DNA from: a virus
Direction: 5' to 3' (one strand)
Length of the DNA stretch: 40,784 nucleotides
IMG/VR virus record: IMGVR_UViG_3300027791_000050
Location: 1 to 40,784 of that record
The position numbers and the translations under genes were made by a program. Under the pieces are notes generated by a model that was not told where the DNA came from, searched no databases, and was given only the letters and a program-made list of their open reading frames with translations. Positions 4,834 to 40,784 of this stretch are shown here, piece after piece; position 1 is the stretch's first letter; every line of letters begins with the position of its first letter.

Positions 4834-4839
4834 TAAATA
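4832..4839 (+). promoter_or_regulatory. T4-like late promoter, GATAAATA
   Basis: GATAAATA immediately follows the stop of the terminase-like gene (4833). Predicted start near 4845 leaves a leader of about 17 bases before the ATG at 4862. This supports choosing 4862 over an upstream in-frame ATG at 4811, which lies before the promoter. Confidence 0.6.
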
Positions 4840-4861
4840 TATTATACGGGAACTATACAAT

Positions 4862-5488
4862 ATGAAAAGTTTAAAACATTACATTGCAGAATCCATTCAC
4901 ACTTATGATTGTACGATCAAAGTTGCTGGAGACTGTAGCAAAAATTTCTTAGAGTTATTTAAACATAACTTACAAAAGTTTGAGCCTCAAGAAATCAAGG
5001 GCCCAACTACTACACCGATTATGAAATCACCGTATGGATTTCCCAATCTTTCAAATGAACAAGTTCACATCTTTAAATGTAAATTCGCATATCCAGTAAC
5101 TGAACCAATGATTCAACAACTAGCACAATTGCTAGGGCACAACATTAACTATGTAAGAATGGTTAATACTGCATTTGACGATAGCATTGACAACGAGATG
5201 GTTGGCTATGAAAATGAAATGAAAGATACTCCTTTGTTACAGCATGACGAAATGAATGACAATGGAAAAGAAGCCAGCAAAGAATATGGTGATAAGTATT
5301 TAGATAGTATTCATAAACATGCTGAACATAAGAATGTAGGCAAAGTAGGTTTACCTGCTGATCAAAAGAATACTAAAGATTCATTTGATCCTTGGAAGCC
5401 TTGGACAGATGATTCAGTTAAAGGTGATAAGAGTCCGTTCACTGATATAAAAAGGGCTCCAAAGCCTGAGACATCAGCGGGACTATAA
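4862..5488 (+). CDS. Probable head-internal protein with capsid-targeting-like N-terminus
   Basis: From ATG 4862 the protein is 208 residues and begins MKSLKHYIAES. This resembles the N-terminal capsid-targeting peptide of T4 internal proteins (MKTYQEFIAEA type), which directs proteins into the prohead and is cut after the glutamate of a [LI]xE motif by protease gp21; here the match is IAE before S. Residues about 12-125 form an alpha/beta domain with YDCTIKVAGDCSKNFLELFK and HIFKCKFAYPVTEPMIQQLAQ; this pattern is familiar from conserved marine T4-like virion proteins. The C-terminal third is polar and Lys/Asp rich. An upstream ATG at 4811 is rejected because it overlaps the previous gene and precedes the late promoter. 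Function beyond capsid targeting is unknown. Confidence 0.65.
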   Translation: MKSLKHYIAESIHTYDCTIKVAGDCSKNFLELFKHNLQKFEPQEIKGPTTTPIMKSPYGFPNLSNEQVHIFKCKFAYPVTEPMIQQLAQLLGHNINYVRMVNTAFDDSIDNEMVGYENEMKDTPLLQHDEMNDNGKEASKEYGDKYLDSIHKHAEHKNVGKVGLPADQKNTKDSFDPWKPWTDDSVKGDKSPFTDIKRAPKPETSAGL

Positions 5489-8400: not shown

Positions 8401-9164
8401 ATGTTACTAAAGATATTGAATATGATGAAATGCATGAAGATCAAGGTTATGATGACAAAGAAGATGAGTCATTAGGCATGCGTACTGGTAAAGAATCTGA
8501 TAAGAAACAGTCTATGAAAGATCGTAGAGACGATTCATATGGCAAGTTCGGTAGCAGAGACGAAGAACATGATCATTTAAAAGAAATGATGGCTATGCTT
8601 TCAGAAGTAGGAGCAGAAGCATCAGAAGAACCTACTCAGCCATTATCACAACACGATGATGAAAGACTATTAACTAAAGAAGGCGCAGAGGATGCACCTA
8701 AGGACGATGTAAACGACACTGAGAACGAAGAAATCACTGAGACACAAACTGAAGATCAAAGAGAGTTTGCAGTAGCAGAAGACGATGACTTAGAAGAAGG
8801 TAAGATACCCGCAGGTCTAAAAGCATACCAAGATAAAAAGAAAGGTAAGAAAGGCGATTCTGAGAAAGAGGTTGATGAAGCATGTGGAGACACGAAAGAA
8901 GAAGAAGAACTTACTGAATGGGCTAACGATGCTGGTAAAAACGGCACAGAAACTTCATTTGAACAAGATATCGACTTTATGACTAAAGTAATCTCAGGTG
9001 GACTTAACAAGCAGAAATCAACAGGTCAAACAACTATTCCAGTTATTGCAGGTCAAAATGATCGCACTGGCTACAATGGTGCTGACTTAGTTAAAGAAGG
9101 CTCTGTAATGTCACATGATGGCCTAGCAGGTCTAATGCTTAAGATGGATGAGTTAAGCAAATAA
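5499..9164 (+). CDS. Large acidic repeat protein, probable virion-internal or scaffold-type
   Basis: A 1221-residue, strongly acidic, low-complexity protein; ATG 5499 is preceded by AAGG (5487-5490). Visible parts: a Lys-rich N-terminus; two related modules of about 35 residues near 338-372 and 602-636 with the pattern K-x-M-C-x-x-G-x-S...I...HP-x-C...L-x-x-MI, which look like small helical or metal-binding units; a glycine-zipper stretch near 445-475 (GAVAGGVLGAKAG...GTVAGAYLG); and three copies of a 45-residue hydrophilic repeat starting QGYDDKEDESLGMRTG at residues 778, 843 and 982. It carries several [LI]xEG sites (NLKEG, HLIEG, KLDEG, DLEEG) of the kind cut by T4 prohead protease. The C-terminus (about 1150 on) is more ordered. 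It follows the capsid-targeted gene after 10 bases and ends at a terminator. Function is unknown; a head-core role is inference. Confidence 0.7.
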   Translation: MDFKDILTKFDKVTEKESLVKKEPKKESKKPRPSNMLTESDSVTKEFKLPSLKKVFEELSIAPASGQPAQEIQKDGQTIGTVTNPTVANQLKTAMDAGELTIGEQEIQEAEDWIDGAVKKPGAFKAQAERAGMSTSAFAKHVLANKDKFNAKTEKRANLAKTFSKMKETDTPPESSMDLTSPISGGGMRESDGSGSYGGQSPLSYDTQRSSKMKVKEAIKLPEITPQMGDNGSNTQSVISGKKVKEGANMAAQYGPDDGSHNSSNDEKGNAAANAALAANDADTPQLVKEKTKDYDVKPTNNPKAAKGKVLNPKGKTDGKASPETYVESKSRNLPSISRLKSMCNEGLSTSAIQQLHPKCNKKELNIMIKNTKTNLKEGAHHILKAAKHMGHAHGLCKGGYSCPHDEGSEGARAYHEGYKEGLDEACGMGIRNEPIAGMEEGVAGAVAGGVLGAKAGFLPSVSGTVAGAYLGHKAQQAADNTNENEGEVVDTMASYGAMGEAESSPDGNVGADDAGAYDKYDWDAQTVEREVSEDEFEEGNAFSGALAKAHTGDKFEVGGKEFTKTTESDAYLEEDEWTFESLEQELNFHLIEGKDGMPTKAHITKMCKDGKSKAEICKMHPNCDQGKLKTMIDHCKKEMKSKLDEGYTMSITQGEENTPDRVSVNATDAEADKLIKFVKDVGLGQYGDAEVADVDAEVVDTGSFYGSPEVEVEPQGSHDDMLKLMGIVDMPNGDFEDEVEAPGTDIDVQVDDAACESCGDKHAMEEGCGDKSMEETQGYDDKEDESLGMRTGKESGKHQSMKDRRDDSYGKFGKRDEEHRDIKEYEDDHDVKPQADDMHEEQGYDDKEDESLGMRTGKESDHKQSDKARRDDSYGKFGKRDSEHREKSLEEMMGMIDEMSQGYDAVEEEKDAGLYDKYDWNASTEGDKKVDEESDVERDDHAEKAGREVAHDADYDDRRHPGKDGKDVTKDIEYDEMHEDQGYDDKEDESLGMRTGKESDKKQSMKDRRDDSYGKFGSRDEEHDHLKEMMAMLSEVGAEASEEPTQPLSQHDDERLLTKEGAEDAPKDDVNDTENEEITETQTEDQREFAVAEDDDLEEGKIPAGLKAYQDKKKGKKGDSEKEVDEACGDTKEEEELTEWANDAGKNGTETSFEQDIDFMTKVISGGLNKQKSTGQTTIPVIAGQNDRTGYNGADLVKEGSVMSHDGLAGLMLKMDELSK
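7830..8580 (+). repeat. Three dispersed copies of a 45-codon repeat
   Basis: Units beginning at 7830, 8025 and 8442 code for near-identical segments (QGYDDKEDESLGMRTGKES ... DDSYGKFG). The DNA copies differ at several synonymous sites, so the protein sequence appears conserved by selection or older duplication rather than copied very recently. Confidence 0.8.
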
Positions 9165-9283: not shown

Positions 9284-12200
9284 ATGGCACAAAGAAATAT
9301 TGACTTCGGAGCATTCCCTGACGATCCAGATGCAGATGCTATACGATCGGCATTTGAGAAAGTTCAGTTAAATTTTACAGAAGTATTCGCTGGATTAGGC
9401 GATCAAGCAGTAGTATCAGTTAACAAGACAGCAGGGCCGGGAGTATACTTAGTGAACGGTTCCCCAGTAGGAAACGTTGTCTTAGGTGCTAACATATCTT
9501 GCGTACAGTTTACTTCAACAACGTTATCATTAACTAGAGATGCACCCGGAAACGGCTCCCCAGGTGGTAGTGCAACTATCACAGACTCGACTCAAACATT
9601 ATATATTGATATACCTAACACTGTAGCAAATATCAGTGACGTAATAGTATCAAACTCAATACAAGGTAATGCAATTATAGGTAATGTGTCCGGAGACTTC
9701 GGATACATATTAGCAAATGCAACATCTGGTAATGGAAACATTAATGCCAACAACATAACATTGTCTGCCGCTCTTATAGCCGCAAATGTCAGTGGTAATG
9801 GAGCTGGACTATCAGCAATCGCTGGTGCTAATGTAACTGGAACTGTACCATTAGCAACAACTGCAGGTACAGTATCAACTATAGCACAACCAAACATAAC
9901 ATCATTAGGTACGTTGACAACACTAGCTGTTCAGTCAACCGTTACTGCGGTAGCATTCACTGCTAACACAGGTTTATTCACTGGAGATGGCGGAGGCTTA
10001 TCAAACATCACAGGAGCAAACGTTACTGGACAAGTAACGAATGCCGCAACTGCAAATATTGTTGCAGGTGCTAATGTAACCGGAGAAGTTTCACATGCCG
10101 CAGTATCAAACTCTGTAGCTGGTGCAAATGTTTCAGGTGCAGTAACATTCGCATCGACCGCTAACGCAGTAGCCGGAGCAAATGTCTCAGGTGAAGTAAC
10201 TAATGCCGCAATCGCAAACTCAGTTGCAGGTGCTAACGTAAGTGGTGCAGTAACATTCGCTGGAACTGCAAACGCAGTTGCTGGTGCTAATGTAAGCGGA
10301 GCAGTTGCTTTTGCAACTACTGCTAATGCAGTCGCAGGCGCTAATGTATCAGGTGAAGTAACTAATGCCGCAACAGCAAATGCAGTGGCAGCCGGTAATG
10401 TAATAGGTACTATAAACTTAGCAACATTCGCTGGAACTGCAAATGCAGTAGCAGGTGCAAACGTCAGTGGAGCAGTAGCATTCGCAACTACAGCAAACGC
10501 AGTAGCAGGCGCTAATGTAAGTGGAGCAGTAGCATTCGCAACTACAGCAAACGCAATAGCAGGTGCTAATGTCAGTGGTGAAGTTGGATTCTCAGCAGTT
10601 TCAAACTCAGTTGCTGGCGCAAACATATCAGGTACTGTAGCAAATGCAACATATGCTGTTACAACAGGTACAGTAGAAACTGCCGCACAACCAAACATAA
10701 CAAGTACAGGCACATTAACATCATTAGATGTTACAGGAAATGTAACTGCCGGAAACTTAACTACAACTGGATTAATTACAGGTGACGGTGGTGGTCTATC
10801 AAACATATCTGTATCAACAGGTTCATATATCGAAAACGGCACAAGTGAAGCAAGACTTGATGCTAGTGGACCGTTCAGAGTTACAGTAGGTGGAACTGCA
10901 AACATATTACAAGTTAAGAATACTGGAACCAAGGTAGAAGTATTAGGTTCATTATCAGTATCTGCAGGTATTGACAACAACATAAACTTTAATAGCACAT
11001 CTAATTTAGGACCCGTAAGTAATGTAACAGTTACTGGTGGTACAGCAGGATCATTCTTAAAAACAGATGGCGCTGGTACTTTATCTTTTGATAGTGCAAC
11101 ATTAGTACCGGCTCAAGGTTCAGATACACAGGTCATATTTAATGACGGTGGCTCTGATTATGCTGGTAACACAGGATTTACATTCAATAAAACAACAGGT
11201 AACTTAAATACACCCGGCTCTATTATTGCTGCCGGCGGAGTATCTGCTGGAATATTAGGCGGAAGTCTAACAACAATAGCACAACCAAATATCACATCTG
11301 TTGGTACTTTAAGTTCATTAATATTAAGTGGAAACTTAAACACTAACAGTGATCTAATTACAAACGCTGGTAACATTACAATTGCAGGCGGTAGTGGAAC
11401 ATTCATCGGCAACGGCAACGGATTAACTAATATACCAGGTGCAAATATAACAGGCGCTGTTCCTACAGCAACTTTAGCAACATTCGCAACTACAGCAAAC
11501 GCAGTAGCAGGTGCTAATGTAAGTGGAGAAGTTACATTCGCGGCAACAGCAAACGCAGTTGCTGGTGCTAATGTATCTGGGGCAGTTGCTTTTGCAACTA
11601 CTGCTAATGCAGTAGCAGGTGCTAATGTAAGTGGAGTAGTAACAAGTGCAACATCAGCAACTACAGCAAGTACAGTAACAACAGCCGCACAACCAAACAT
11701 CACAAGTGTCGGTACATTGTCATCATTATCAGTCACTGGTAGTGTGTCTGCAGGGAATGTGTCAGGCACAGGTGGTGTGTTTACATATGTATCTGGAGAT
11801 GGAGCAAATTTAACAGCAATCACAGGACAAAATGTTTCAGGTGAAGTTGACTTTGCTCAAGTAGCAAACTCAGTAGCAGGAGCTAATGTATCAGGTACAG
11901 TATCAAGTGCTACAACAGCCACAACTTCAGGTACAGTAACAACTGCGGCACAACCAAGCATTACATCTCTTGGTACACTATCAGGATTAGGTGTCAATGG
12001 AATTATAACAGCATCAGCAGTAGTAGCAAATACAGGATTATTTACAGGTGATGGTGGCGGCCTATCAAATGTAGCATCCGCTAATATTTCTGGAACAGTA
12101 GCAAACGCAACATATGCAACATCAGCAGGTAGTTCAGCACTAGCATTAGATATTACAGGGGCATCACAGCCGAACGTTACTTCTGTTGGTACATTAACTA

Positions 12201-12550
12201 ACTTAACAGTGTCTGGTAATATAACTAATCAGACTCACATTATTAAAGACGTAACAACAGTAACTGCAACCGGAACAAATCTAGCAGGTGCTACAGCAGT
12301 AGCCGGAGCAGATATATTCACAGTAACAACACCTAGCAATGACAATGGTGTTTTACTAATGACAGCCGTTGCAGGTTTATGTCTATACATTAAAAATATA
12401 TCAGCATCAAATATATTAAAAGTATATCCGGCACCGGGTGATAACATTGATGGTAGCCCTGGGGCAATGTCAATAGGTCCTAAAGGACATATTCAATTTG
12501 TAGCACATAGTTCATCAGCATGGTATACTGTTGGCGCAACATATGCATAA
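9284..12550 (+). CDS. Repeat-rich tail fibre protein
   Basis: A 1088-residue protein, presumably a trimeric fibre contacting the host surface. The N-terminal segment (residues 5-35, with FPDDPDADAIRSAFEKVQ and NFTEVF) is an attachment-type module seen on marine phage fibres. The body is built of short repeats: an 18-residue unit of the type AVAGANVSGAVAFATTAN in two blocks (about 250-450 and 735-790), TGDGGGLSNI-type units at least five times, and AAQPNITSVGTLSSL-type units. Such Ala/Gly/Val/Asn repeats fit an elongated beta-structured shaft. The last 110 residues are non-repetitive (from about DVTTVTATGTNLAG to the end) and look like a tip or trimerisation domain. Start ATG 9284 follows AGGA at 9270-9273. 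Long reverse-strand open frames opposite the repeats are artefacts. Fibre class is confident; receptor unknown. Confidence 0.82.
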   Translation: MAQRNIDFGAFPDDPDADAIRSAFEKVQLNFTEVFAGLGDQAVVSVNKTAGPGVYLVNGSPVGNVVLGANISCVQFTSTTLSLTRDAPGNGSPGGSATITDSTQTLYIDIPNTVANISDVIVSNSIQGNAIIGNVSGDFGYILANATSGNGNINANNITLSAALIAANVSGNGAGLSAIAGANVTGTVPLATTAGTVSTIAQPNITSLGTLTTLAVQSTVTAVAFTANTGLFTGDGGGLSNITGANVTGQVTNAATANIVAGANVTGEVSHAAVSNSVAGANVSGAVTFASTANAVAGANVSGEVTNAAIANSVAGANVSGAVTFAGTANAVAGANVSGAVAFATTANAVAGANVSGEVTNAATANAVAAGNVIGTINLATFAGTANAVAGANVSGAVAFATTANAVAGANVSGAVAFATTANAIAGANVSGEVGFSAVSNSVAGANISGTVANATYAVTTGTVETAAQPNITSTGTLTSLDVTGNVTAGNLTTTGLITGDGGGLSNISVSTGSYIENGTSEARLDASGPFRVTVGGTANILQVKNTGTKVEVLGSLSVSAGIDNNINFNSTSNLGPVSNVTVTGGTAGSFLKTDGAGTLSFDSATLVPAQGSDTQVIFNDGGSDYAGNTGFTFNKTTGNLNTPGSIIAAGGVSAGILGGSLTTIAQPNITSVGTLSSLILSGNLNTNSDLITNAGNITIAGGSGTFIGNGNGLTNIPGANITGAVPTATLATFATTANAVAGANVSGEVTFAATANAVAGANVSGAVAFATTANAVAGANVSGVVTSATSATTASTVTTAAQPNITSVGTLSSLSVTGSVSAGNVSGTGGVFTYVSGDGANLTAITGQNVSGEVDFAQVANSVAGANVSGTVSSATTATTSGTVTTAAQPSITSLGTLSGLGVNGIITASAVVANTGLFTGDGGGLSNVASANISGTVANATYATSAGSSALALDITGASQPNVTSVGTLTNLTVSGNITNQTHIIKDVTTVTATGTNLAGATAVAGADIFTVTTPSNDNGVLLMTAVAGLCLYIKNISASNILKVYPAPGDNIDGSPGAMSIGPKGHIQFVAHSSSAWYTVGATYA
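10060..10640 (+). repeat. Tandem 54-bp-type repeats in tail fibre gene
   Basis: Around ten to twelve imperfect copies of a unit coding AVAGANVSGxVxxATTAN occur here; a second smaller block lies at about 11485-11645. Several adjacent copies share long identical DNA stretches, making slippage or recombination between copies likely. Confidence 0.8.
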
Positions 12551-17875: not shown

Positions 17876-18382
17876 ATGATTAACGATTACTACGGACGCC
17901 CTATCTATACTGAACGAGATTTAGTAGATATCTACATGAAAAATCCTAGTCAACATTTAACAAATACTCTGACGGATATGAAAATAGATATAGATCCTTC
18001 ATTAGAGATCGAAAACGTTCCGGGACTAATAGAACATACACTAGCACAAATGTCAGTCGCAGACTTTGATGAAGAAATGCGAAGCAAATGGCATATGCCT
18101 CAACACTATAGAGAGTTTGATATTGCTAAGTGGTTATTAACACAATGCAAACATGAAGAAGAAATTCAACGTGTAGGTAAAGAACTATTACTGTATCAAA
18201 AACGAGGACAGTTCTTATTACTTCAATACATGAAATACTTAGTTGATTTAATGAGAGAAAACAATATTGTTTGGGGTGTCGGAAGAGGCTCAAGTGTATC
18301 AAGTTTTGTTTTGTTTTTGATCGGTATTCACCGTATAAATAGTATCTACTACGGTCTAGACATCGAAGAATTTTTAAAATAG
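17876..18382 (+). CDS. DnaE-like (C-family DNA polymerase) fragment protein
   Basis: A 168-residue protein. Residues about 95-168 closely follow the DNA polymerase III alpha (DnaE) region just before the catalytic aspartates: a helix ending LLLQYMKYLVDLMRENNIVW, then GVGRGSSVSSFVLFLIGI (DnaE has GPGRGSxxGS), then SIYYGLDIEEFLK (DnaE: GLLFERFL). In DnaE this glycine-serine motif contacts the incoming nucleotide. The protein stops exactly where DnaE continues into its DFDIDF catalytic motif, so polymerase activity is not expected. The next gene starts 9 bases later with a good ribosome site, and I see no frameshifted continuation. T4-like phages use a family B polymerase, so this is likely a repurposed module, possibly interacting with host or phage replication. 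Function unknown. Confidence 0.72.
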   Translation: MINDYYGRPIYTERDLVDIYMKNPSQHLTNTLTDMKIDIDPSLEIENVPGLIEHTLAQMSVADFDEEMRSKWHMPQHYREFDIAKWLLTQCKHEEEIQRVGKELLLYQKRGQFLLLQYMKYLVDLMRENNIVWGVGRGSSVSSFVLFLIGIHRINSIYYGLDIEEFLK

Positions 18383-27545: not shown

Positions 27546-29978
27546 ATGGCAAATATTGTTATCATGCCCGGGGGTTTTCACCCGTTTCATGCAGGACATG
27601 CCGCATTGTATAATAGCATCAAAAAGAAATACGGGGCAAGTTCTGATATCTATGTTGCGGCTAGTGATAGTCAAAAACAGAGACCTTTTCCTTTTAAAAT
27701 TAAAGAAAAATTAGCACAAATCTCAGGTGTTCCAACAGGAGAGTTTGTACAAGTAAGGTCTCCGTTTGTTCCAAAAGAAATCACAGACAAGTATGATCCA
27801 GAGAATGATTCTATTGTTTTTGTACGAAGTGAAAAAGATAGAAACGAATACCCAAAGCCCGGCGGAACAAAGAAAGATGGTACACCGGGGTACTTTCAAG
27901 CATTACCTAAGTCAGGGTCTAAAGTCGGATCATTTAAAGATGTAGGTTACATGGATTACTTACCGACAGAAGAATTTGCAGGTATTACAAGTGCGACTGA
28001 AATTAGAAACGCCTGGCCTAAATTAGATACAGAAGGCAAAGGCAAGTTTGTAGAACAGATTTACCCTCACATTGCAGGCAACGACAAGTTAATTAACAAC
28101 GTAATAAAGTTATTAGATTCTGCACTTACTGATGAAATCACTGAGGGTGATGTCGTACCATTTAAGCGTCCTGATTTACCTGAAAACATACAACAACTCG
28201 TAATCGATTGGTACGGAGATCAAAATAGATACACTAAAGCACAGTTACAATCAAAAGGATACAAAGTAGCAGTTGATGATCATTCAACTAATATTGTAGT
28301 TACTGATAAAAAAGGTAGAGAGTTTACTGTATCAGTAGACAAAGCGATGGACAGCCTAATACAGAGAGCCTACAGAGACCCTGAGCAAGTAGATGAAGTT
28401 AAATACGTTAGTGGATTTATGGGAGCAGACGGCAAACCAACATCTACTCCTACTGCGGCAGATTATGCATCTAATAAAGAATTTCAAAACATGAAGAAGA
28501 AATTAGGTGACAAAATACCTCAACCTACTAAAAGAGATGCAGACGGCAAATTATCACCATTTAAGAAAGACAAACAAGTAGACGAAGCATTTGTAAGTCC
28601 AGAGCAGTTAGATGAAGGTTTAAAAGAAAAACTTGCCATCGGTATCCTTGCATTAGGATTACAATTTAGCAAAACAAATGCAGAGGAAGTATTTGTTTAT
28701 CAGGATACTCAAGGTAAATACGTCACTGCATACTCGAAAGAGGATGTTCCAGATACATCAGACCTAGTTTATTATATAGATACCGAAACGGATGAAGATG
28801 GAAATGTTACTATAGGAGAAAAAAAGTGGCTTAGATTTCCTGCTATAGCAACAGGTGATGCGGAGAAACTCCTGCAATTTATGCCTACACCAAAACCAGA
28901 ATTTATACAGAAAGCAGTTGATGAATTGAAACTTGCCGGCTTCTTTACTGAAACATTCGTTGATCCTGATCAATCAAAGCAATACTGGAACCATGATTCA
29001 CAAAATGTAGGAGTAGGTATGCAAATTGAAATGCCGTTAACAGATACACCAAACTTAAATGGTAGAAGACAAGGATTCAATGAAGGCGAAGAAAGAAGTA
29101 TCATTAGAGATGCCGCAATCAATGCTTTAGTAAATGCTTTTGAAGGACATGAAGATGAATTTGAAAGTAGAGAAGCAATAGAAGCCAATATCTACAGTGT
29201 ATTATCTGATTTAGATGTTGAAGATATCGTAGACCCAGAAATGGATCATCATGGTCAACGTATGGGGAACTTTGCTAGTGGTAGAGTTATAGATGTTGTT
29301 GATAGCAGTAGTGTAATAGATGAAGTTATGCAACAAATAAACTATTTTGACCCAACAGATGATAGAAATTATGTCAGTGAATCATTAGACAAGATTCGTG
29401 GCATGATCAAAGAAACTACAGACGAACAAAAGTCTAAGTCAGTTAACTTACATCGTAAACTCTTTGAACTCTTTGAAGAAGAAAGAGACAATGTTATTAA
29501 ACTAAGAGGCTTCGGCAAAGAAACTGATAAGAAAGTAGTAGACATTAATAAAGCCAGACAAGAAAAACAAGCAAACCAAGAACGTGAAGACAATCGTTAT
29601 AGTGAACAAAGACAAAAGCAAGATAATTATCTAACATCAATACAAGAAATTCTATTTGGATTACATGAAGAATTTGCTGACATGGAACAGTTAGGTCTGA
29701 TGCCTATAGAATTAAAAGATGCATTTGACAACACAACACAACTCATTGACTTTATATCAAATTATAAAGATTCAGAAGATCAAAATGATTTTACTTTTAC
29801 TGAAGAAATGGTTGATAAACTACATCTTAAGACTATTCAACTCAAAGAATACTTCGGTGGTACAAGAGACACTTCAGCACCTAAAGTGTTAAGACAACAG
29901 ACTCCTAGACGAGAGCCCGGCTCGTATTGGAACAAAATTGATTTGTCCGAAACCGCTGATTATATCGAAGAAAAATAA
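27546..29978 (+). CDS. Large protein with N-terminal nucleotidyltransferase (cytidylyltransferase-like) domain
   Basis: An 810-residue protein. Residues 1-160 have the fold signature of the nucleotidyltransferase superfamily (adenylyl/cytidylyltransferases): GGFHPFHAGH with H15 and H18 of the HxGH motif, and ITSATEIR (147-154), matching the second ISxTxxR motif. Transfer of AMP or CMP to a phosphorylated substrate is thus possible. Residues about 200 onward are not enzymatic by appearance: acidic, repetitive, with a hydrophobic segment (IGILALGLQFSKTNA, about 366-380) and a coiled-coil part near 640-740. Motifs EITEG (about 198) and QLDEG (355) look like prohead-protease sites, which could free the enzyme domain in the head. 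No ribosome site is obvious beyond coupling to the upstream stop (one base). A packaged enzyme is inference. Confidence 0.8.
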   Translation: MANIVIMPGGFHPFHAGHAALYNSIKKKYGASSDIYVAASDSQKQRPFPFKIKEKLAQISGVPTGEFVQVRSPFVPKEITDKYDPENDSIVFVRSEKDRNEYPKPGGTKKDGTPGYFQALPKSGSKVGSFKDVGYMDYLPTEEFAGITSATEIRNAWPKLDTEGKGKFVEQIYPHIAGNDKLINNVIKLLDSALTDEITEGDVVPFKRPDLPENIQQLVIDWYGDQNRYTKAQLQSKGYKVAVDDHSTNIVVTDKKGREFTVSVDKAMDSLIQRAYRDPEQVDEVKYVSGFMGADGKPTSTPTAADYASNKEFQNMKKKLGDKIPQPTKRDADGKLSPFKKDKQVDEAFVSPEQLDEGLKEKLAIGILALGLQFSKTNAEEVFVYQDTQGKYVTAYSKEDVPDTSDLVYYIDTETDEDGNVTIGEKKWLRFPAIATGDAEKLLQFMPTPKPEFIQKAVDELKLAGFFTETFVDPDQSKQYWNHDSQNVGVGMQIEMPLTDTPNLNGRRQGFNEGEERSIIRDAAINALVNAFEGHEDEFESREAIEANIYSVLSDLDVEDIVDPEMDHHGQRMGNFASGRVIDVVDSSSVIDEVMQQINYFDPTDDRNYVSESLDKIRGMIKETTDEQKSKSVNLHRKLFELFEEERDNVIKLRGFGKETDKKVVDINKARQEKQANQEREDNRYSEQRQKQDNYLTSIQEILFGLHEEFADMEQLGLMPIELKDAFDNTTQLIDFISNYKDSEDQNDFTFTEEMVDKLHLKTIQLKEYFGGTRDTSAPKVLRQQTPRREPGSYWNKIDLSETADYIEEK

Positions 29979-31183: not shown

Positions 31184-32236
31184 ATGAAATTTAACGAAAT
31201 AACAGAGAATGCATCAGCAGGTTCAACCGGTTCCGGTTCAATATCAACTGTCGCATCTCCAATGAGTATGCAATCCCGTAATAATGCTAGTATATATGGT
31301 GGGAAAAAAGCAGGCAACTTACTGACAGGTAAAAAATCAAAGGGCAAATATGCTAATTCTGTCGAAGCACGTAAACATATGAACAAAGTTAACGAAGCCA
31401 ATGTCACTGAAGATGAAAAAAATCGTCGGAAAAATATAAAAAGCGGTCACAATCCAAAAGTCAAACAACTATTGCGTGATGAGGGGACAAAAATCATACA
31501 ACAGTGGGTTAAGAATCTACATGCCCAGTTTCCTAAAATGCCTAAAAATCGTGGCCCAAGTGAAGAATTCCCTTATGGCCCTATAAGCATCGTTAAAAGT
31601 GCTATGAAAAATGGCATAGAAACAACAGCAAGACTTATAGGTGAACGTAATATAAATAGAAATGGCATAGAAAACCTAAAAACAAGACATGCCTATGATA
31701 ATATAATTATACCGGCATCCCAAGAAATATTGCTCAATTTATTACCTCAGATCGATTTTGATAAAATCAAATCAGCATACAATAATCCTAAAATTTTAGA
31801 CACGGAACTCACTGAAGAAGATGTGATGGAAAAAGAAGTTCTTGTTATCCCAGGCTCAAAGAAAAAAGACCGTAGATCAGGTTTTGTGCCGCACGGTGAA
31901 AGCAGAGTAGACCATGAAGTTAAAATGGCTAAGGCTGATCTATTTGCAACAGCAAAGAATGCGAAAGAAATTATGGAATGCTTAAAAGATAGAAGTGAAG
32001 AAGAAGGTATCAAAGGATGGATGCAGTCTTATATTACATTAGCAAATGATTATCTCAATTCAGTCAATGAATCATTACAATATGAAATGCAGATGCATGA
32101 AGATCAACCAGCCGCATACGGAAATGGTGCAGATGATCGGATCAATACAAGAAATAAATTAGACAAAGAACCATACGGCGGACCTAGTTCAAGTTCTCCC
32201 GGCGGTGCTTTACAATCAACAGTGGGCGGAGCATAA
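31184..32236 (+). CDS. Probable virion-internal protein with MKFNEITE start
   Basis: A 350-residue protein. The N-terminus MKFNEITENAS has the [LI]xE arrangement of T4-like prohead-targeting peptides, followed by a Ser/Gly-rich flexible stretch. The central part (about 65-210) is basic and helical. Residues about 240-310 (SRVDHEVKMAKADLFATAKN, MECLKDRSEEEGIKGWMQSY, ITLANDYLNSVNESLQYEM) follow a pattern of helices that I recall from C-terminal parts of several marine phage virion proteins, with E/D-x-x-MAxxxL and GWxQxxI-TxAxDYLxSV. The last 40 residues are Gly/Ser-rich. AGGA lies 9 bases before the start. Stop and next ATG overlap (TAATG). Internal head location is inference. Confidence 0.65.
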   Translation: MKFNEITENASAGSTGSGSISTVASPMSMQSRNNASIYGGKKAGNLLTGKKSKGKYANSVEARKHMNKVNEANVTEDEKNRRKNIKSGHNPKVKQLLRDEGTKIIQQWVKNLHAQFPKMPKNRGPSEEFPYGPISIVKSAMKNGIETTARLIGERNINRNGIENLKTRHAYDNIIIPASQEILLNLLPQIDFDKIKSAYNNPKILDTELTEEDVMEKEVLVIPGSKKKDRRSGFVPHGESRVDHEVKMAKADLFATAKNAKEIMECLKDRSEEEGIKGWMQSYITLANDYLNSVNESLQYEMQMHEDQPAAYGNGADDRINTRNKLDKEPYGGPSSSSPGGALQSTVGGA

Positions 32237-33396
32237 TGAGTTCAATATTAGAAGGTGCTGATATAGCGTATTTAAGAGAGTACAACGAATCTGAAGACGA
32301 GAGACGTTTAGATGCGTTACAAGACTCCATAGGTAGTATTAGAAAAGCAACAAAAGGTGGAAAGTATCTTGGTAGTGATGTCATAGACATTATGGTACAG
32401 GTACAAGGTTTCGCAGAAAAATTAGGTATCGATCCTCAAGAACTAGACTATTACGAAAATCAAGTTAGAGAAGCACAAAACAATTTAGAATCTGCTATTT
32501 ACGGATTAGAAGAACCGTTTGAAGATGCTATCAGAACACTACAAAATAGAATAGATGATGTAAGAATGGATGCTGAAGATTTAGACGAAGCAGGTACTAA
32601 TTGCTGGAAAGGATATGAGAAGAAAGGCACTAAGAAGATGTTTGGTAAGACTGTCAACAACTGTGTTAAGAAAGAATCAGTAGAAGAAAATACACCGGGA
32701 TTTGATCAGGATGCATTTAATAACATCTTTAAAGATAGAAAACCAAAGGCGTCCGGGGATGCCCAAAATGCTGGCGCCAACAGGCGCATTAATAGGTCTA
32801 GACGTTACAAAGATGATTTTAAAAGTTACAAAGATGATTTCAAAAGAAATGAGTTAGATTTTGAATTAGGGCATGAAGATTTAAAAGAAAAGAAAAAGTC
32901 TGGCATGGGTGAAGTCATGGAGATGTATGACGATCATCTTTACCTTATGTATATTAATGGTAAATTAGCGGCACCTACTCCGATCGAAAGAAAAGACAAA
33001 AATACATACGAACGAATTGCTAAAAACATGGGATTTGAAGATATAATGTTTAAGGCTACACCAAGACATCATTATTCTTCTGAGGACTTAGCAGAAGGCA
33101 ATGGTAATATTCGTAAAGTATTTGCAGGTATTGTTCTATTAGGCGGACTACTAGGATTAAACAATTACCAAGCACAAAAGATGTATGATCAGAGTCATCA
33201 GTTACAACAGTTAACACAAGTTTATATGGTTGCTAAAGATAGAGGTGATAAAGAAAAAATGAAAGATGTTAGCAGAAGAATCAGCAATCATAAAACAAGA
33301 ATAGATTTAGGCAAAGGCGATGTTGATTTTGATGGACGTCCTGGCAATGACGATATTAAAGATATAGATTACATAAACCCAATTGAGGAAAGATAA
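32236..33396 (+). CDS. Protein with CWKGYEKKGTKKMFGKT motif and membrane-like segment
   Basis: A 386-residue protein starting within the preceding stop. It starts MSSILEGADIAYL, an ILE-G cleavage-like site. The residues 123-143 contain C123-W-K-G-Y...K-K-M-F-G-K-T-V-N-N-C143, a basic Cys-flanked motif that I recognise from many marine phage proteins without knowing its function; it could form a disulphide or bind nucleic acid. Residues 180-225 are very charged, with a duplicated YKDDFKxY/R segment. A hydrophobic stretch of about 15 residues (VFAGIVLLGGLLGLN, near 294-308) may cross a membrane or pack in a core, followed by a helix with MYDQSHQLQQLTQVYM. More [LI]xEG/A sites occur (DLDEAG, DLAEGN). 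A virion-packaged role is inference. Confidence 0.65.
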   Translation: MSSILEGADIAYLREYNESEDERRLDALQDSIGSIRKATKGGKYLGSDVIDIMVQVQGFAEKLGIDPQELDYYENQVREAQNNLESAIYGLEEPFEDAIRTLQNRIDDVRMDAEDLDEAGTNCWKGYEKKGTKKMFGKTVNNCVKKESVEENTPGFDQDAFNNIFKDRKPKASGDAQNAGANRRINRSRRYKDDFKSYKDDFKRNELDFELGHEDLKEKKKSGMGEVMEMYDDHLYLMYINGKLAAPTPIERKDKNTYERIAKNMGFEDIMFKATPRHHYSSEDLAEGNGNIRKVFAGIVLLGGLLGLNNYQAQKMYDQSHQLQQLTQVYMVAKDRGDKEKMKDVSRRISNHKTRIDLGKGDVDFDGRPGNDDIKDIDYINPIEER

Positions 33397-33905: not shown

Positions 33906-34925
33906 ATGAAATTATGTGAACTTAAAGAAGGCATGGGCGGATCATCTGGAGGTGGAACTCCTGGAGCAGGTGGTGCCGGTGGTTCATCATTAGGTCTTCC
34001 TTACCCATCAACATACGAAGAAGAATACGACAAGTTCAAATATCGTAGCCCAGTCCAACGACAAATGTCTTTAACCACTGAAGAACAAGGTGAAATGTTT
34101 ACTGACCATCTCGGAATGCAAGAGATGATGAATGATAAAAAGTGGCCTGGTGACTTGCAACAAGAAGTATTAAAGAAGTATGTCAATGATACTGAGCAAG
34201 GAGAAAACTTTGTCGGAGAAATGAAGTACAAAGGGCTAAAACGTTTAGATAACTACGGTCTATTGCAAAACACAGAGAACTTGCAGTTATTAACAAGATT
34301 ACCTCAGAACATAATCAATAAAATCAATGAGACATGGCAAATGTCTATTCCTAAAATACAAGCAACATCTGTGTCTGATCTAGGATACGAAAAGTATATT
34401 ATGCAATTTGGTTTTCTTACAAAACCAGCAGTAGCAATTGATGCTGATATTATTATGGGAACTGAAAAATGGGTTGCTAGTGTAATCAATGGTGAAAAAG
34501 TAAAACAATGTCATATTTTATCTCCAGAGGGACCAGGTGTTATAACAAATAGACCAAATAATAGTTTGGCGCCTGCAAAACAAAGAGAACTAGCATTTGT
34601 AGAAGCATTAGATAAAATTTATCCTAGAGATGAGTTGCCACAACTTAACATTACTGACTTTGAAAACTCAGAATACACCACACAAAAAATACAAGCTCCT
34701 ATTGATAAACTTAGGCCTTCACAAAATGAACGTTTAAAGAAATACACTAAGAAGGCTATAAAATTATTAAAACAAGGTCAAGAAAAACCTATAGTCATTG
34801 ATAAACGAGGTTATATCATAAACGGTCATCACAGATACGATGCATACAAAAAACTCAACTACAAGACGATTCCTGCGATTAAGGTAAATGCTACCATAGA
34901 AGAACTAATCGATAAATACATGTAA
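33906..34925 (+). CDS. Protein with C-terminal ParB/Srx-like domain
   Basis: A 339-residue protein starting MKLCELKEGM, again a short leader-like N-terminus with an LKEG site, followed by a Gly/Ser-rich linker. Residues about 35-260 are a domain I do not recognise, mixed alpha/beta (MFTDHLGMQEMMNDKKWPG, YKGLKRLDNYGLLQNTENLQ). Residues 265-339 form a ParB-like domain: IDKLRPSQ, then KPIVIDKRGYIINGHHRYDA (GHHRYDA at 307-313 corresponds to the GHRRxxA-type signature), then KTIPAIKVN. ParB/sulfiredoxin-fold domains bind CTP or ATP and act in DNA segregation or as nucleases. No helix-turn-helix follows it. No Shine-Dalgarno is obvious before ATG 33906. Function in this phage is unknown. Confidence 0.72.
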   Translation: MKLCELKEGMGGSSGGGTPGAGGAGGSSLGLPYPSTYEEEYDKFKYRSPVQRQMSLTTEEQGEMFTDHLGMQEMMNDKKWPGDLQQEVLKKYVNDTEQGENFVGEMKYKGLKRLDNYGLLQNTENLQLLTRLPQNIINKINETWQMSIPKIQATSVSDLGYEKYIMQFGFLTKPAVAIDADIIMGTEKWVASVINGEKVKQCHILSPEGPGVITNRPNNSLAPAKQRELAFVEALDKIYPRDELPQLNITDFENSEYTTQKIQAPIDKLRPSQNERLKKYTKKAIKLLKQGQEKPIVIDKRGYIINGHHRYDAYKKLNYKTIPAIKVNATIEELIDKYM

Positions 34926-34939
34926 CAGGAACGAATATA

Positions 34940-35383
34940 ATGCTCTCAGAGAACCTTAAAATACTATTAGCAACATCATATGCATTTGTGATCAAAGCAC
35001 AAAACTTTCATTGGAATATTGAAGGATCTAATTTCCCTCAATATCATAAATTCTTTGATGATTTGAACCATGAAGTATATGAAAACGCAATTGACAGAAC
35101 TGCTGAATATATTCGTACACTAGAATCATATACTCCAGGCTCAATATCACGTTACGCAGAACTCTCATTGATACCAGATCAATTAAAGATACCTAGAGCA
35201 GAGTTAATGTTTGCTGAACTGTATTCAGATAATACAATTCTAATCGAACATCTAAAAGTATGCTATGATTCATGTGAAGAATCAGAACACTATGGTATTT
35301 CAAATTTTATTGCTGAACGAATAGACGCCCACAATAAACATCAATGGATGATACGAAGTACATTAAAGACATCTAGGGAGTAA
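34940..35383 (+). CDS. dps: Dps/ferritin-like protein
   Basis: A 147-residue protein, shorter than bacterial Dps (about 160-170). The Dps signature QNFHWNIEGSNFPQYHKFFDD is followed by AIDRTAEYIRTLESYTPGS. Ferroxidase positions are preserved as H24, H36, D40, D52 and E56, with one extra residue between D40 and D52 compared with E. coli Dps, and the typical spacing D-x3-E. The protein would thus be a four-helix bundle that could form an oligomeric shell oxidising iron and binding DNA. The N-terminal DNA-binding Lys tail of E. coli Dps is missing. AGGAAC lies upstream of ATG. It lies between a ParB-like and a giant protein gene in the presumed head-internal operon. Fold confident; activity inference. 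Confidence 0.78.
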   Translation: MLSENLKILLATSYAFVIKAQNFHWNIEGSNFPQYHKFFDDLNHEVYENAIDRTAEYIRTLESYTPGSISRYAELSLIPDQLKIPRAELMFAELYSDNTILIEHLKVCYDSCEESEHYGISNFIAERIDAHNKHQWMIRSTLKTSRE

Positions 35384-35385
35384 AC

Positions 35386-38300
35386 ATGCTCTCAAATCAG
35401 TTTGAAAATATAATACTGGAATATAAGCAAGATATTACTGCTAAGAAAATGGGCGAGCCACTCATTCAGAGATTCATGGCTGATGCAGATAATGATCCAA
35501 GTATACTTACACCCAAAACAAAAAAACTAGTTGATGCAATACAAAACATTGAATTAGGGCCGTTGTTTGCAAAGCCGGATCCCGATAAGCCCGCTCCAAC
35601 TGAAAAAGAACTAGCAAAAGAAAAAGAAAAATTAGCAATTTTAAAAAATCAACTTGCTGTCTCAATATTAACAAAAATAGAAGAAACAGATCCTACTAAA
35701 AATAAAAATTATGTTCAATGGTTAGTGAGAACATATTCTAATAATACTATGCCTTTAGAAGATGTAGTATCAACGATTGCTGATTACTTAGATAAGTTTC
35801 ACAAGTTAAAAATAAAACGTCATTTAAAGAATGCTGACATCGGCCAGTATAGTAATTTTGATGACTTTATGAATGAGATAGATACATTTCCTAATGACTT
35901 GATAGATGATGACGAAGGGAAAAAGAAAAAATACAATGCAGAAAAGATATATGATGAAAATGGTATCTTAGTTATTCATCCATTAGATAGAGAAGCATCA
36001 TGTCGTTACGGTAGAGGAACTCGTTGGTGTACAGCATCAACAAGAGGTCATAATTACTTTGATTCATATAATAGAAAGGGTCCGCTGTATATGCTTATAC
36101 CACGCAGACCTAATCATGCAGGAGAGAAATATCAATTTCATTTTGAAGACGGTGTCGTTGCAGATGAAAAGGATGATTACTTAAATAATGCACAATTATA
36201 TAAATTAGCGGAAGACTTCCCGGCAATTAAAGATGCATTTAAAGAACAAGCAGAAAAATTCGGTCTTCTTTGGTTACAACAACCTAAAAGAACATTTGAT
36301 GGATCTAACTTTAAAGTAGAAGAATATGTAAAGAACAACGCACCTTATTACTTGTTCAAGCCTACTGATACAGATCAAATCTTTGGCATGGAGAAAGATG
36401 CTGATGGATCAATGAAGGTCACAAAGATAACCAGTACTGGTTATGGTCATAATGAAGATTTATCTACTATTGAAGAACACGATTTGTTTACTAAGTACCC
36501 TGATTTAGTTACTAAGTTCGGCATTGAAGGTGCTAACATCGTTTCTAATCCGACAGTAACTAACACTAAGAACAAGGCGTCGATAGAACAACATAAAAAT
36601 GTTATTGTTATGACTGATAAACACGGTCATAAGACTTCAGTAAAAGCAACAACTGGAAGAGATGATGCTCCAAGAATTGAAGCAATGCGTACAAGCCCAC
36701 TTCCAGGTACTCCTGGAGAGGGCCAAAGGAAAAAAAGCTCCGGCGCTCAGTTACAGTTGAATCCATATGAACTTACATTAGAACACCCTGAATTAATTGA
36801 CATATACGGTACAGTTATACAAAAGAAAATAAAAGAGCAGGCCAAGGTAGTTAAAGATAACGGCGGTGACATAAAAGAATATAATCAAAATGCCTTAAGA
36901 AAAACTGCCGCATTCTTACCTTATAAGTTATACAAAAAAGAAGACGTAGTAATTAAAAGTCATCAAACATCAGATGGCAAGCCTGTATTAGATTATGTTG
37001 TAAGTACAAGAGACGGAACAGCCACTATTATTAACAGAGACATGAGGACAGGTGAAGTAGATTCTGTCGAGCCTGTCAAAACAAATTCAATACGTGGAAT
37101 CACAGGAGATGCTCAACTCCGTTCATTAGTAAATGCACAAGGAGAAGAGTATGGAGACATGGGAGATAAATCATTCCAACGATTATATAGCGGCAATCCA
37201 AGTGATCATCGCAATGATCAGAATGCTTTAGATTTTCTACCATCTATATCATACTTAGAACAACATCCTGGACTAAAAGATTTCTACAAAGAAACAGAGT
37301 TAGCAACACCGAAAATAAAAGAAGTGCCTTCAGGCACTATTAAAGATTACGGTAAAGTTCAAACACCCCCGAATTCTAACTCATACTATAGTGGAAATGA
37401 CTTACAAAATAATGTAAAATCAATGCGTAACTACATTGTACAACCTAAAGATTCAGAAGCAGGGGAAAGTTATGCGATTAGTTGGTCTCCTGAAAGACCC
37501 CAGTATACGGAAACATATCACTCTGATTCTAACGGACGTCAAACTAAGTTAGAAGAATATAAAGACCAGCAACATGTATTAAGAATGTTCCCTGAACTTA
37601 GACAGATGCAATTAAAAGATTGGGAAGCATTTCGTAAGAGAGATCCTGAATATCAACCTACAGAGTTTAGTCAGTACAATAGTCATAGCAGACTTGAAGG
37701 CGTACCCGCATGGACATTTGCACCTGAAGCGGAAGTAGACAATGAACGTGTTGATATCAAACAGTATGGAAATTCTAGTGAGACTCATACTTTACCTATG
37801 TTTGAAGTAAGACCAAAAGAAGAAAATCCTTTCGGAGTAGTAGGAGATACATTCTTTATTGATCTAGCATTAAAAGATAATAGAGGTAAGTACGGAAAGA
37901 TTAGTAGTATCGACATTCAAAGATTCGGTAAAAACTACATGCAAGAGAAAGAAGTTGATGAGTATGGTAGATTCCAAGATGCTGGTCAGCAAAATTTTGT
38001 AGCCGTAGACACGAAGGCAACAGCAGATAAAACTAAATTATCGCCCAAAGAAATTATAGACTTTTTTAAATATTATCCAGAACTTAGAAAGATGGTTAGA
38101 GATGAGAACATACATCCTAAAACTCCTCATCCAGCACTTGCTTCTAAGCCCGACGAAGAAGGCAACATAGAAGAAAATGTAGAACAGTTCGATAACTTTA
38201 AATTAGAGACTACTACACAAACAGTGCCCGGTGTTGAAAAACAATACATTGTACCTAATGAAGAAGAATACACAGGAGAATTCTACACTCTCTTTACATT

Positions 38301-40784
38301 TGACCCATCACAACAACCTGCATTTGAAAATGGAGAATCAGTATTTACTGAGTATGGTAGAGTTAAGGGTTACGGTGATAGAGGATTTACTCAATTAGTT
38401 AGGGGAGAGGGAGAGTCTGATAGAAGTTATTACGGACAAACAAAGACTCCTGGCCATGAAATGGAAGAGGCATATACTGGAAGAATTGAGGGTAGTATGA
38501 CCCCTAATACTCCTGCATACAATGCATTGATGCAACGTTTTCCAGAATTAAAAGAATTACTTACAGAAAAGGGTATAGAAGTTGGTGACATTAGAACTCA
38601 AAATGTAACTGAAGAAGATGTCGTTGAGTTTGGAACAGACAGATTATATACATTTAAAAACAAAGACGGCAGTGATGTCTATATTATTACTCCAGTAAAC
38701 AATCCTCTAAGAGGACAGCACGGAGACATTAAACAATCATCACTTGGCCCTAATGATAGCGGCCGCATGGGCAATGATATCGGTGCAAATTTTAGAAAGT
38801 TAGCATCAGACGAAGAAGGTTATGACGAAGAAAATGAGACCTGGAATAGAGATTCATATGCTATAAACTTTGAGAGTACAGAAAGTAATCCATATCTAAA
38901 TGTACCGTTACTAATAGATCCTTTAAAAGACATTGTTGAATTACAAGTAAAAGCATCTGGCGGCAGAGAAACTGATACCCGACTGACATCAAAAGAAGAA
39001 TTTGAAAATGACGTAATAAAGTCATTTAGTACAATTTCATCATTAGAGGATGGTAGTTCTAATACTAATAACAACTCATATCTTAGTAGAGCAAAACAAA
39101 ACCCAGAGTTATATAAATGGTTACAAGACAAAGCAGAAATACGAAATAGTGAAACTAAAGGTATAGGTCAATTTATTAATTTCTTACCTATAACAACTGA
39201 TCAATTAACAGATGAGCAAAAAGAGATGCCAAAAGTATATGGTATAAACTTAGTTGGTATCGGAAAAATTGGCATCAGTAATCCTCTTTACATGTGGCAG
39301 GGAAGACAAGATGGCTTCGGTGGAGCAGAGTATAAATTAAATGACGAGAAAAGTCAATACAGTTTACAAAATTCAGATTATAAAGAAGCACTTAACGATA
39401 TGCGTGGCATTGAAAACGACCAAAATAATACGTTTCGTAAAATGAATCAATACAAAATGAATAACACTACACTTCTGATTAAGCCTGAGTCTGCTACTAG
39501 ATTTTTAACTATTAACGGCGGTGGTGGCAGACGGATAGCGTCAAATGGATATATGCAAGTTCCTAATGCTAAATTCTTAAACATGGCTAGAGAATTGCCT
39601 AACATAGAAAAGATCATACCTAAGAAAGAATTAAAAGCAATGGGTGCAATGCCCACACAGACATGGGGACCAAGGCAAGTTACAGCATTAGCAGGTAAGC
39701 CGGCATTAAACAATGATGGCAAGTCTTGGATTAAAAGTATAAAAGAATTTAAAATGCCTGATGGCTTAGGCATTGAGTCACATGGTTATGGTATGGATAT
39801 GCCTCATAAAATTTTACCCGCGGGCACTGGATATCTTATAACACTGAATCCTATATCTGATCAACAAAAGAGAAAAAGAGTCGATGGCAAAATACAGAGA
39901 GTTGCTAGTCCATGGAGTACTCTTATGAGAGGATTAAGACAGCGGGGAATAGATTTACCCTGGGATTTCACCCATGAAGTTTTAGATGCCACAAACGGGC
40001 CCCGAGATTCAAAAGAAAATCAATTTATGATTTACTTTGCAAATGACCGCGTTGCATATATACTCGATTCAAATTCCGCAAACTATTCTAAGTATAACTT
40101 AACACAAGAGATGAAGAAAGCATTATTCTTTGATCCGGAAGTAGGTATCTTCCCTGAATTAAAACCTATATTCGATCAATACTCAAAATCAAATAAATGG
40201 TTGCGTGAACATGAATTTCATGCTATAATGTCTCAAGTATTACGTGAAAGTTTAGGAGACAAAAAATACTGGGAACTACAAAAAGAAAAAAACAAACAAA
40301 ACAAACCTAATTACGGTCAACTTGTATTCTTAAAGAACATACGTTTAGCAGGTAGTTATGATAATAACAAATTAAAAGAACTCGGCTTCTTTATGAAGAA
40401 TGGCGAGTGGGCAATATCAAAGCCTAAGTATGATAGCATTGTTAGAGACGGCAAGTTAAGAGAAATGACTATTAACAGACCATTGATTACAGGTAAAAAC
40501 AAAATACCAAACGTAGGCAAAAAGAAAGTACAAGAAAACGTTTGGGCATTTGATGCAGAGAAAGCATTAGAGTTATTAAAAGAACCTTTACTACGAGGTG
40601 GAGGAGATGATGATCCTGATTTAGGTTGTGACATGTGCGGTGGACATGGATGTGGAGCAGGGTACGACATCAAAGATGACTTAGCACGATGGACAGAAAT
40701 GTTAAATCCAGATGCAGATAATAGACCTGAACATCTTACAAACGATTACATTCAACAGAAAATAGAAAAACTAAAAGCAATGGT
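35386..40784 (+). CDS. Giant modular protein, 3' truncated by window (at least 1799 residues)
   Basis: An unbroken frame from ATG 35386 (AGGGAG at 35375-35380, 5 bases upstream) to the window end. Residues 95-290 form a domain I recall from many uncharacterised marine phage proteins: a helical start (NYVQWLVRTYSNNTMPLEDV), DIGQYSNFDDFMNEI, then EASCRYGRGTRWCTASTRG with C206 and C215, GPLYMLIPRR, and YQFHFEDG. The rest is a series of units of about 95-190 residues, each closing with a helix bearing xPELxxx (or variant) at P279, P372, P468, P628, P736, P898, P1053, P1240, P1405 and P1590. Near 1748-1756 is C-x2-C-x4-C, a candidate metal site. It follows the Dps-like gene by 2 bases. No catalytic family can be named; a virion-injected or structural protein is inferred from its context. 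Confidence 0.8.
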   Translation, partial: MLSNQFENIILEYKQDITAKKMGEPLIQRFMADADNDPSILTPKTKKLVDAIQNIELGPLFAKPDPDKPAPTEKELAKEKEKLAILKNQLAVSILTKIEETDPTKNKNYVQWLVRTYSNNTMPLEDVVSTIADYLDKFHKLKIKRHLKNADIGQYSNFDDFMNEIDTFPNDLIDDDEGKKKKYNAEKIYDENGILVIHPLDREASCRYGRGTRWCTASTRGHNYFDSYNRKGPLYMLIPRRPNHAGEKYQFHFEDGVVADEKDDYLNNAQLYKLAEDFPAIKDAFKEQAEKFGLLWLQQPKRTFDGSNFKVEEYVKNNAPYYLFKPTDTDQIFGMEKDADGSMKVTKITSTGYGHNEDLSTIEEHDLFTKYPDLVTKFGIEGANIVSNPTVTNTKNKASIEQHKNVIVMTDKHGHKTSVKATTGRDDAPRIEAMRTSPLPGTPGEGQRKKSSGAQLQLNPYELTLEHPELIDIYGTVIQKKIKEQAKVVKDNGGDIKEYNQNALRKTAAFLPYKLYKKEDVVIKSHQTSDGKPVLDYVVSTRDGTATIINRDMRTGEVDSVEPVKTNSIRGITGDAQLRSLVNAQGEEYGDMGDKSFQRLYSGNPSDHRNDQNALDFLPSISYLEQHPGLKDFYKETELATPKIKEVPSGTIKDYGKVQTPPNSNSYYSGNDLQNNVKSMRNYIVQPKDSEAGESYAISWSPERPQYTETYHSDSNGRQTKLEEYKDQQHVLRMFPELRQMQLKDWEAFRKRDPEYQPTEFSQYNSHSRLEGVPAWTFAPEAEVDNERVDIKQYGNSSETHTLPMFEVRPKEENPFGVVGDTFFIDLALKDNRGKYGKISSIDIQRFGKNYMQEKEVDEYGRFQDAGQQNFVAVDTKATADKTKLSPKEIIDFFKYYPELRKMVRDENIHPKTPHPALASKPDEEGNIEENVEQFDNFKLETTTQTVPGVEKQYIVPNEEEYTGEFYTLFTFDPSQQPAFENGESVFTEYGRVKGYGDRGFTQLVRGEGESDRSYYGQTKTPGHEMEEAYTGRIEGSMTPNTPAYNALMQRFPELKELLTEKGIEVGDIRTQNVTEEDVVEFGTDRLYTFKNKDGSDVYIITPVNNPLRGQHGDIKQSSLGPNDSGRMGNDIGANFRKLASDEEGYDEENETWNRDSYAINFESTESNPYLNVPLLIDPLKDIVELQVKASGGRETDTRLTSKEEFENDVIKSFSTISSLEDGSSNTNNNSYLSRAKQNPELYKWLQDKAEIRNSETKGIGQFINFLPITTDQLTDEQKEMPKVYGINLVGIGKIGISNPLYMWQGRQDGFGGAEYKLNDEKSQYSLQNSDYKEALNDMRGIENDQNNTFRKMNQYKMNNTTLLIKPESATRFLTINGGGGRRIASNGYMQVPNAKFLNMARELPNIEKIIPKKELKAMGAMPTQTWGPRQVTALAGKPALNNDGKSWIKSIKEFKMPDGLGIESHGYGMDMPHKILPAGTGYLITLNPISDQQKRKRVDGKIQRVASPWSTLMRGLRQRGIDLPWDFTHEVLDATNGPRDSKENQFMIYFANDRVAYILDSNSANYSKYNLTQEMKKALFFDPEVGIFPELKPIFDQYSKSNKWLREHEFHAIMSQVLRESLGDKKYWELQKEKNKQNKPNYGQLVFLKNIRLAGSYDNNKLKELGFFMKNGEWAISKPKYDSIVRDGKLREMTINRPLITGKNKIPNVGKKKVQENVWAFDAEKALELLKEPLLRGGGDDDPDLGCDMCGGHGCGAGYDIKDDLARWTEMLNPDADNRPEHLTNDYIQQKIEKLKAM

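Follow-up and report, generated by a model that had tools for sequence, protein, structure and literature searches.

Analysis of the window, i.e., the whole stretch of viral DNA studied here (40784 nucleotides), revealed a giant open reading frame (ORF) whose product is, on balance, likely packaged into the phage head through a T4-type tag, trimmed after an ILE tripeptide and probably ejected, and which carries one WCTA domain followed by decayed copies of half of that domain. In the proposed mechanism, a T4-type N-terminal capsid-targeting sequence (MLSNQFENIILE) would direct the giant protein into the head and a gp21-like prohead protease would trim it after ILE. The trimmed protein would remain with the DNA within the mature head and be ejected into the host at infection, like Alt and the internal proteins of T4. 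Its layout would comprise the tag, a helical region, the WCTA domain and approximately eight to nine tandem modules, probably duplicates of the sheet-and-helix half of that domain that no longer have the Cys helix. The WCTA domain would carry the activity, maybe a Cys-His reaction, and the modules would hold a partner, a role in which LRR, TPR, WG or DUF4116 repeats may replace them in other WCTA proteins.

The giant protein may be an injected tool. It is conceivable, although doubtful, that WCTA proteins constitute a large unrecognised class of head-packaged, ejected effectors, in which a capsid-targeting tag is combined with a Cys-His enzyme domain of a new type and with an array that binds targets and can be exchanged; here the array would have been built by duplicating the sheet half of the domain repeatedly, with decay of the copies. 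Most of what is known of capsid-targeted internal proteins comes from T4, in which they modify the host polymerase or block host restriction. If the broader proposal is true, the occurrence of a tag-bearing family in dozens of distinct phage lineages, including Pseudomonas jumbo phages, would imply that capsid-targeted delivery is common, and the WCTA family would provide named, testable candidates for the earliest cargo that large phages inject. The array itself apparently evolved via duplication and decay of part of a neighbouring domain.

The giant ORF (1799 codons, 35386–40782, plus strand, as are all features of its product given below) starts with an ATG at 35386, with AGGGAG ahead of it, and continues without a stop codon to the contig end, bearing out the open frame of at least 1799 codons reported in the first-pass annotation. 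The source record is a 40784-base fragment of a virus, and since the frame is still open at its end, the gene is truncated. Nine close relatives (L001–L009) had lengths of 1802–2021 aa and 36–59% identity to the window protein, and a far more distant complete relative (L141/L142) had 1529 aa. Complete relatives mostly extended approximately 200 residues further than the point at which the window cuts the protein; after the part corresponding to residues 1616–1799 (40231–40782) they have EGKKLPRTSEFL..TGEKPTG, a sequence missing from the window protein because of the contig end. A PDB sequence search with the whole giant protein found nothing, a kinase domain gave no match in it, and a repeat-array search seeded with L141 returned only the L141 and L142 contigs. 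Pfam matches to Chromo_2 and Flg_hook were disregarded, since their scores were below the curated cut-offs.

The region conserved throughout the WCTA family spans residues 95–292 (35668–36261; hmmsearch E 2e-69, phrog_28193 E 3.6e-8, phrog_17056 E 4.2e-7), with the sheet domain proper at approximately 183–292. In AlphaFold model 1 (residues 1–500, 63 sequences, mean pLDDT 86.9) this domain was built of two strands, the Cys helix region, three strands, a helix, P279 and a further helix. Within the motif GRGTRWCTA (residues 209–217, 36010–36036), G209, W214, C215 and T216 were invariant (63/63 sequences), as were Q250 and H252 in the YQFHFE strand (36133–36141), while D263 (36172–36174) was present in 62 of the 63 sequences. 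Both cysteines highlighted in the first-pass annotation, C206 and C215, were located as stated there; their conservation differed, C215 being found in all 63 sequences but C206 in only 52, so that the latter is no family-wide feature. Foldseek searches of the PDB produced nothing at E <= 0.001, leaving the WCTA domain without a match to a solved structure, and its profile retrieved just short, repeat-like or coiled matches from PDB sequences. Neither Pfam nor NCBIfam had a name for the domain, and a literature search returned no paper joining the terms WCTA and phage.

The invariant Cys and His argue for WCTA as an enzyme, and a catalytic Cys-His-Asp set with the nearly invariant D263 was considered. 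Such a Cys-His enzyme is hypothetical, and the catalytic idea is weakened by a related group, WCVx (hhalign probability 96%), in which W-C is kept and the Q-x-H strand motif is lost. With some reservation, we therein see a possible alternative, namely that the WCTA domain mediates interactions or forms a fold, with a structural role for its Cys, rather than being an enzyme, and that the protein is a head-delivered binding array, e.g., a host-defence inhibitor like T4 IPI. The six invariant positions, including Cys and His, across 63 sequences with identities down to approximately 25% exceed what would be expected for a pure scaffold; the alternative is nevertheless favoured by the absence of H252 from WCVx relatives that retain W-C, by the preservation over long distances of units without the Cys helix, and by the presence of a non-enzymatic restriction enzyme inhibitor among the T4 internal proteins (PMC3012670).

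WCTA domains occur widely among phages, in many cases fused to repeats of other kinds. A degenerate search detected 169 WCTA-encoding stretches in viral contigs but only four in a set in which each bacterial and archaeal species is represented by one genome. The first-pass annotation had described the domain as recurrent but uncharacterised in marine phages; its recurrence in phages and its lack of a name in the domain databases were borne out. Repeat partners among 53 WCTA proteins included DUF4116 (five), LRR (at least two), WG (two) and TPR (one), and on the strength of these partners the PEL modules of the giant protein (described below) most likely bind a partner as well. The WCTA set also contained one LPD22 match and one match to a polyvalent-type ADP-ribosyltransferase (ART-PolyVal); a 2462-aa polyvalent-type protein with a WCTA domain inside is encoded by contig L094 (5442–12827). 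Two WCTA genes, sometimes adjacent, were found per contig in L086 (6871–9017), L022 (8011–11932), L084 and L119, most of them with their own tag-like N-terminus. Foldseek searches against predicted viral proteins placed WCTA-like domains in PA5oct, Caulobacter phage CcrBL9 and some giant-virus bins. The BFVD matches in the latter were from Marseillevirus LCMAC201/202 (one named ankyrin repeat protein), and an Indivirus FNIP-repeat protein matched with 42% over 73 columns; the giant-virus matches could reflect transfer or binning error.

Downstream of the WCTA motif, the protein is marked by a recurring PEL-type motif, and this recurrence is not due to chance. The comparison with shuffled sequence, named as a possible refutation in the first-pass annotation, gave 11 occurrences of the broad motif [FYHNL]P[EDGNA][LIVM] vs. 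a mean of 1.58 after shuffling (maximum 9 in 5000), and seven of the strict motif [FYHN]P[ED][LI] vs. a mean of 0.33 (maximum 3). The remaining window proteins had zero or one broad match each. All ten prolines listed at the outset exist, and the alignment showed eight of these sites to be solid: Pro was found in at least seven of eight relatives at P279 (which sits inside the WCTA domain itself), P372, P468, P628, P736, P898, P1053 and P1590, the last being conserved in all eight. P1240 was Pro in just six of eight relatives, and P1405, with three of eight, was not conserved.

The segments between these motifs were supported as remote copies of one fold. After cutting the family alignment at the PEL motifs, segment profiles were compared by hhalign with reversed segments as control, and segment-vs-segment comparisons reached a median score of 18.8 vs. 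12.0 for the reversed segments (Mann-Whitney p 3e-11). The best pair, consisting of the C-terminal half of WCTA and the first unit (U1), aligned with strands and PEL helix in register (probability 80%, E 1.5e-5). Strands of the distant relative L141 were also alike by eye (PMYIIIPRKPSHPGEKYQFHF in WCTA, PFLRVVPKNPSHEGEEYFI in U1 and NYFLIPKDPSRPGEKYSLTI in U4), and when unit profiles were run against all other ORFs of the loci, approximately eight of approximately 20 non-redundant weak matches lay in other WCTA proteins, immediately behind the WCTA motif. The Cys helix is missing from the copies, which resemble the sheet-containing C-terminal half of WCTA. The original suggestion of degenerate tandem copies, with the Cys motif kept in the first alone, thus held insofar as the profiles exceeded the reversed controls and U1, U2 and U5 converged on one fold; it was corrected in that the copies correspond to the sheet-and-helix half rather than to the whole domain, and in that the eighth segment was unsupported.

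Structure prediction was in line with this arrangement. In model 1, a helical region (residues 3–165, of which 13–165, at 35422–35880, form the all-helical region behind the tag) was followed by the WCTA domain and then by U1 and U2, each with five strands, a helix, Pro and a helix. Model 2 (residues 460–1640, eight sequences) was poor overall, with a mean pLDDT of 49, and contained U4, U5 and U6 as blocks at pLDDT approximately 65–83 with the element order of U1 and U2; it gave no match in BFVD. For U1 (299–379), U2 (385–480) and U5 (779–906) the best solved-structure match was in each case the polo box, with Z scores of 4.5–6.2 (weak, below 8). The polo-box matches could reflect a common arrangement; the landing of the three separately placed units on identical residues of one fold supports a shared fold among them.

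U1 as delimited by its motif covers residues 299–392 (36280–36561, PDL at P372), with five strands and a helix in model 1, the 80% hhalign probability to the WCTA C-terminal half and polo-box Z scores of up to 5.7. It is followed by U2 (393–492, 36562–36861, PEL at P468), also in model 1, with polo-box rows over 385–480 (Z 4.5–4.9), and by U3 (493–655, 36862–37350, PGL at P628), which matched U1 with 44% and the WCTA C-terminal half with 20% and showed five strands and a helix before the Pro at low pLDDT. U4 (656–765, 37351–37680, PEL at P736) had a local pLDDT of 64–83 and L141 strands close to those of WCTA, as given above. U5 (766–915, 37681–38130, PEL at P898; residues 320–447 of the model equal 779–906 of the protein) had polo-box Z scores of 5.0–6.2, the best rows at an rmsd of 2.4–3, and U6 (916–1080, 38131–38625, PEL at P1053) showed strands, helix, Pro and helix and an hhalign probability of 46% to the WCTA C-terminal half. 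Probable units are U7 (1081–1265, 38626–39180, PEL at P1240; 7% to the WCTA C-terminal half, weak model) and U9 (1431–1615, 39676–40230, PEL at P1590, with Pro in 8/8 relatives; 15%). The U8 segment between them (1266–1430, 39181–39675, PNI at P1405) has no conserved Pro and a pLDDT of mostly 23–30, and its status as a unit is unsupported.

The N-terminus carries a putative capsid-targeting propeptide, MLSNQFENIILE (residues 1–12, 35386–35421), with ILE at residues 10–12, proposed from (L/I)xE statistics and the T4 gp21 motif; we infer cleavage after Glu12 and before Tyr13. In model 1 the pLDDT was 52 at residues 1–10 and approximately 90 beyond. The T4 capsid-targeting sequence consists of approximately ten residues, after which gp21 cuts following L/I-X-E (PMC9026906). 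Judged by their sequences, the N-termini of WCTA proteins (MRYKEFLLEYSR, MKSLEFLLEYDR, MKISEILAEA and similar) share this layout, which is newly recognised here. An (L/I)xE within residues 4–20 was present in 36/46 WCTA clusters vs. 137/447 background ORFs (odds ratio 8, Fisher p 4e-10), a result to be read with the short length of the motif in mind, since short motifs are prone to false positives and 31% of the background ORFs have one too. Of 25 carrier contigs, 12 encoded Peptidase_S77, among them every one of the eleven that measure at least 180 kb; it was also present in both PA5oct and Paride, in PA5oct together with a Gp23-type capsid protein. The closest relatives, whose contigs are all fragments of up to 128 kb, gave no S77 match, and the protease was therefore shown just for more distant carriers. 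In CcrBL9, whose WCTA protein has no clear tag, there was no S77 match, as expected if tag and protease go together, this being one case.

Three genes upstream of the giant gene (31184–32236, 32236–33396 and 33906–34925, plus strand) likewise encode an (L/I)xE near the N-terminus and possibly form a head-protein cluster. It is very unlikely that the giant protein instead belongs to the tail or baseplate, with a coincidental N-terminal (L/I)xE: the window does hold tail sheath, tube and fibre-like genes, but these lie more than 18 kb from the giant gene, and its tube and fibre-like products lack an (L/I)xE start, in contrast to the three genes just upstream. The enrichment of the motif across 46 clusters also speaks against coincidence.

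The gene content of the window as a whole is that of a T4-like myovirus, with tail sheath, tail tube, head closure, clamp loader and endolysin genes. The product of 33906–34925 starts with MKLCELKEG, continues with a Gly-rich linker and ends in a C-terminal ParB-N-like domain (PHROG 620, E 4e-11), and is a possible further head protein with a tag, its domain being nuclease-like. The giant gene is immediately preceded by 34940–35383, which encodes a Dps/ferritin-like protein (Pfam Ferritin, E 3e-18). The product of 32236–33396 has a short stretch, GTNCWKGYEKKGTKKMFGKTVNNCVKKE, that recurs in five or more PHROG families without known function; one of its PHROG matches, phrog_727, also matches a gene located downstream of the giant one in the relative L132. 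At 4811–5488 an internal Met gives MKSLKHYIAES, with a layout like the T4 capsid-targeting sequence, and the listed GTG start may be wrong. Further along, 5499–9164 encodes an acidic protein (1221 aa) with repeated blocks like QGYDDKEDESLGMRTGKES..QSMKDRRDDSYGKFG.RD, and 9284–12550 a fibre-like protein (1088 aa) with many AVAGANVSGEV-type repeats. The 168-aa ORF at 17876–18382, possibly a split polymerase, matched phrog_11127, a family of phage DNA polymerases (E 3e-39), as well as phrog_405 over a short stretch, and the 810-aa protein of 27546–29978 has an N-terminal nucleotidyltransferase-like match (CTP_transf_like, E 0.007) followed by a long unassigned remainder.

The PA5oct homologue, EST35_0205, is described in its GenBank annotation as structural by ESI-MS/MS. 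Virion delivery, raised as a possibility in the first-pass annotation, was in this way supported by a head-targeting N-terminus and a virion-annotated homologue, and is presumed for the window protein itself. The word ‘structural’ would also suit a component of the prohead core or scaffold that serves to fill the head or set its size, being either degraded or kept there, with no role in the host, as would the great length and many modules of the protein and the fact that T4 core proteins likewise enter the prohead and are cut by gp21 at the identical motif (PMC9026906). We nonetheless consider such a role rather improbable, because the invariance of W-C-T and Q-x-H across very diverse proteins, the fusion to varied interaction repeats and the occurrence of several WCTA genes in one contig are more typical of functional cargo. 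Packaging followed by ejection is the reading that we prefer.

Compared with known systems, the units of the array resemble the polo box of Plk1 and Cdc5 (the best match of three separate units) in having a sheet and helix in tandem. The polo-box reference consists of a six-stranded antiparallel sheet and a C-terminal helix, and the scores of U1, U2 and U5 were below the level of a confident shared fold; identity was 4–18%, and neither common descent nor phosphopeptide binding is proposed. PcfJ (PF14284) has a conserved Cys and a helix and hairpin in similar order. Weak Pfam matches to it occurred in two of 27 WCTA members (best E 0.07), and one BFVD match was ‘PcfJ-like’ (E 7e-4). Comparison with nine PcfJ sequences gave an hhalign probability below 1%, with no profile match through WCVx as an intermediate either, and kinship is not claimed for lack of a profile-profile match. 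PHROG 28193 and 17056, both of unknown function, match the WCTA region over approximately 125 residues and leave the repeat units unmatched. The same WCTA domain is found in EST35_0205 of PA5oct and Paride_0002, both from Pseudomonas jumbo phages, with 31–34% identity over residues 91–285. These two proteins have a tag-like N-terminus, as in the giant protein, and the PA5oct one is virion-annotated; unlike the giant protein, they measure approximately 480–520 aa and are without the long array of PEL units. The T4 internal proteins, at approximately 8–20 kDa, differ from the giant protein of approximately 200 kDa, which has a different domain set and is known here from sequence alone. T4 Alt and IPI are packed into the head by their tag and ejected with the DNA (PMC9026906, PMC3012670). 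Large-genome WCTA carriers share with T4 a gp21-like S77 protease, through which their WCTA proteins would be processed on packaging, and, like IPI, IPII, IPIII and Alt, most WCTA proteins begin with a short putative N-terminal propeptide ending in (L/I)xE (PMC9026906).
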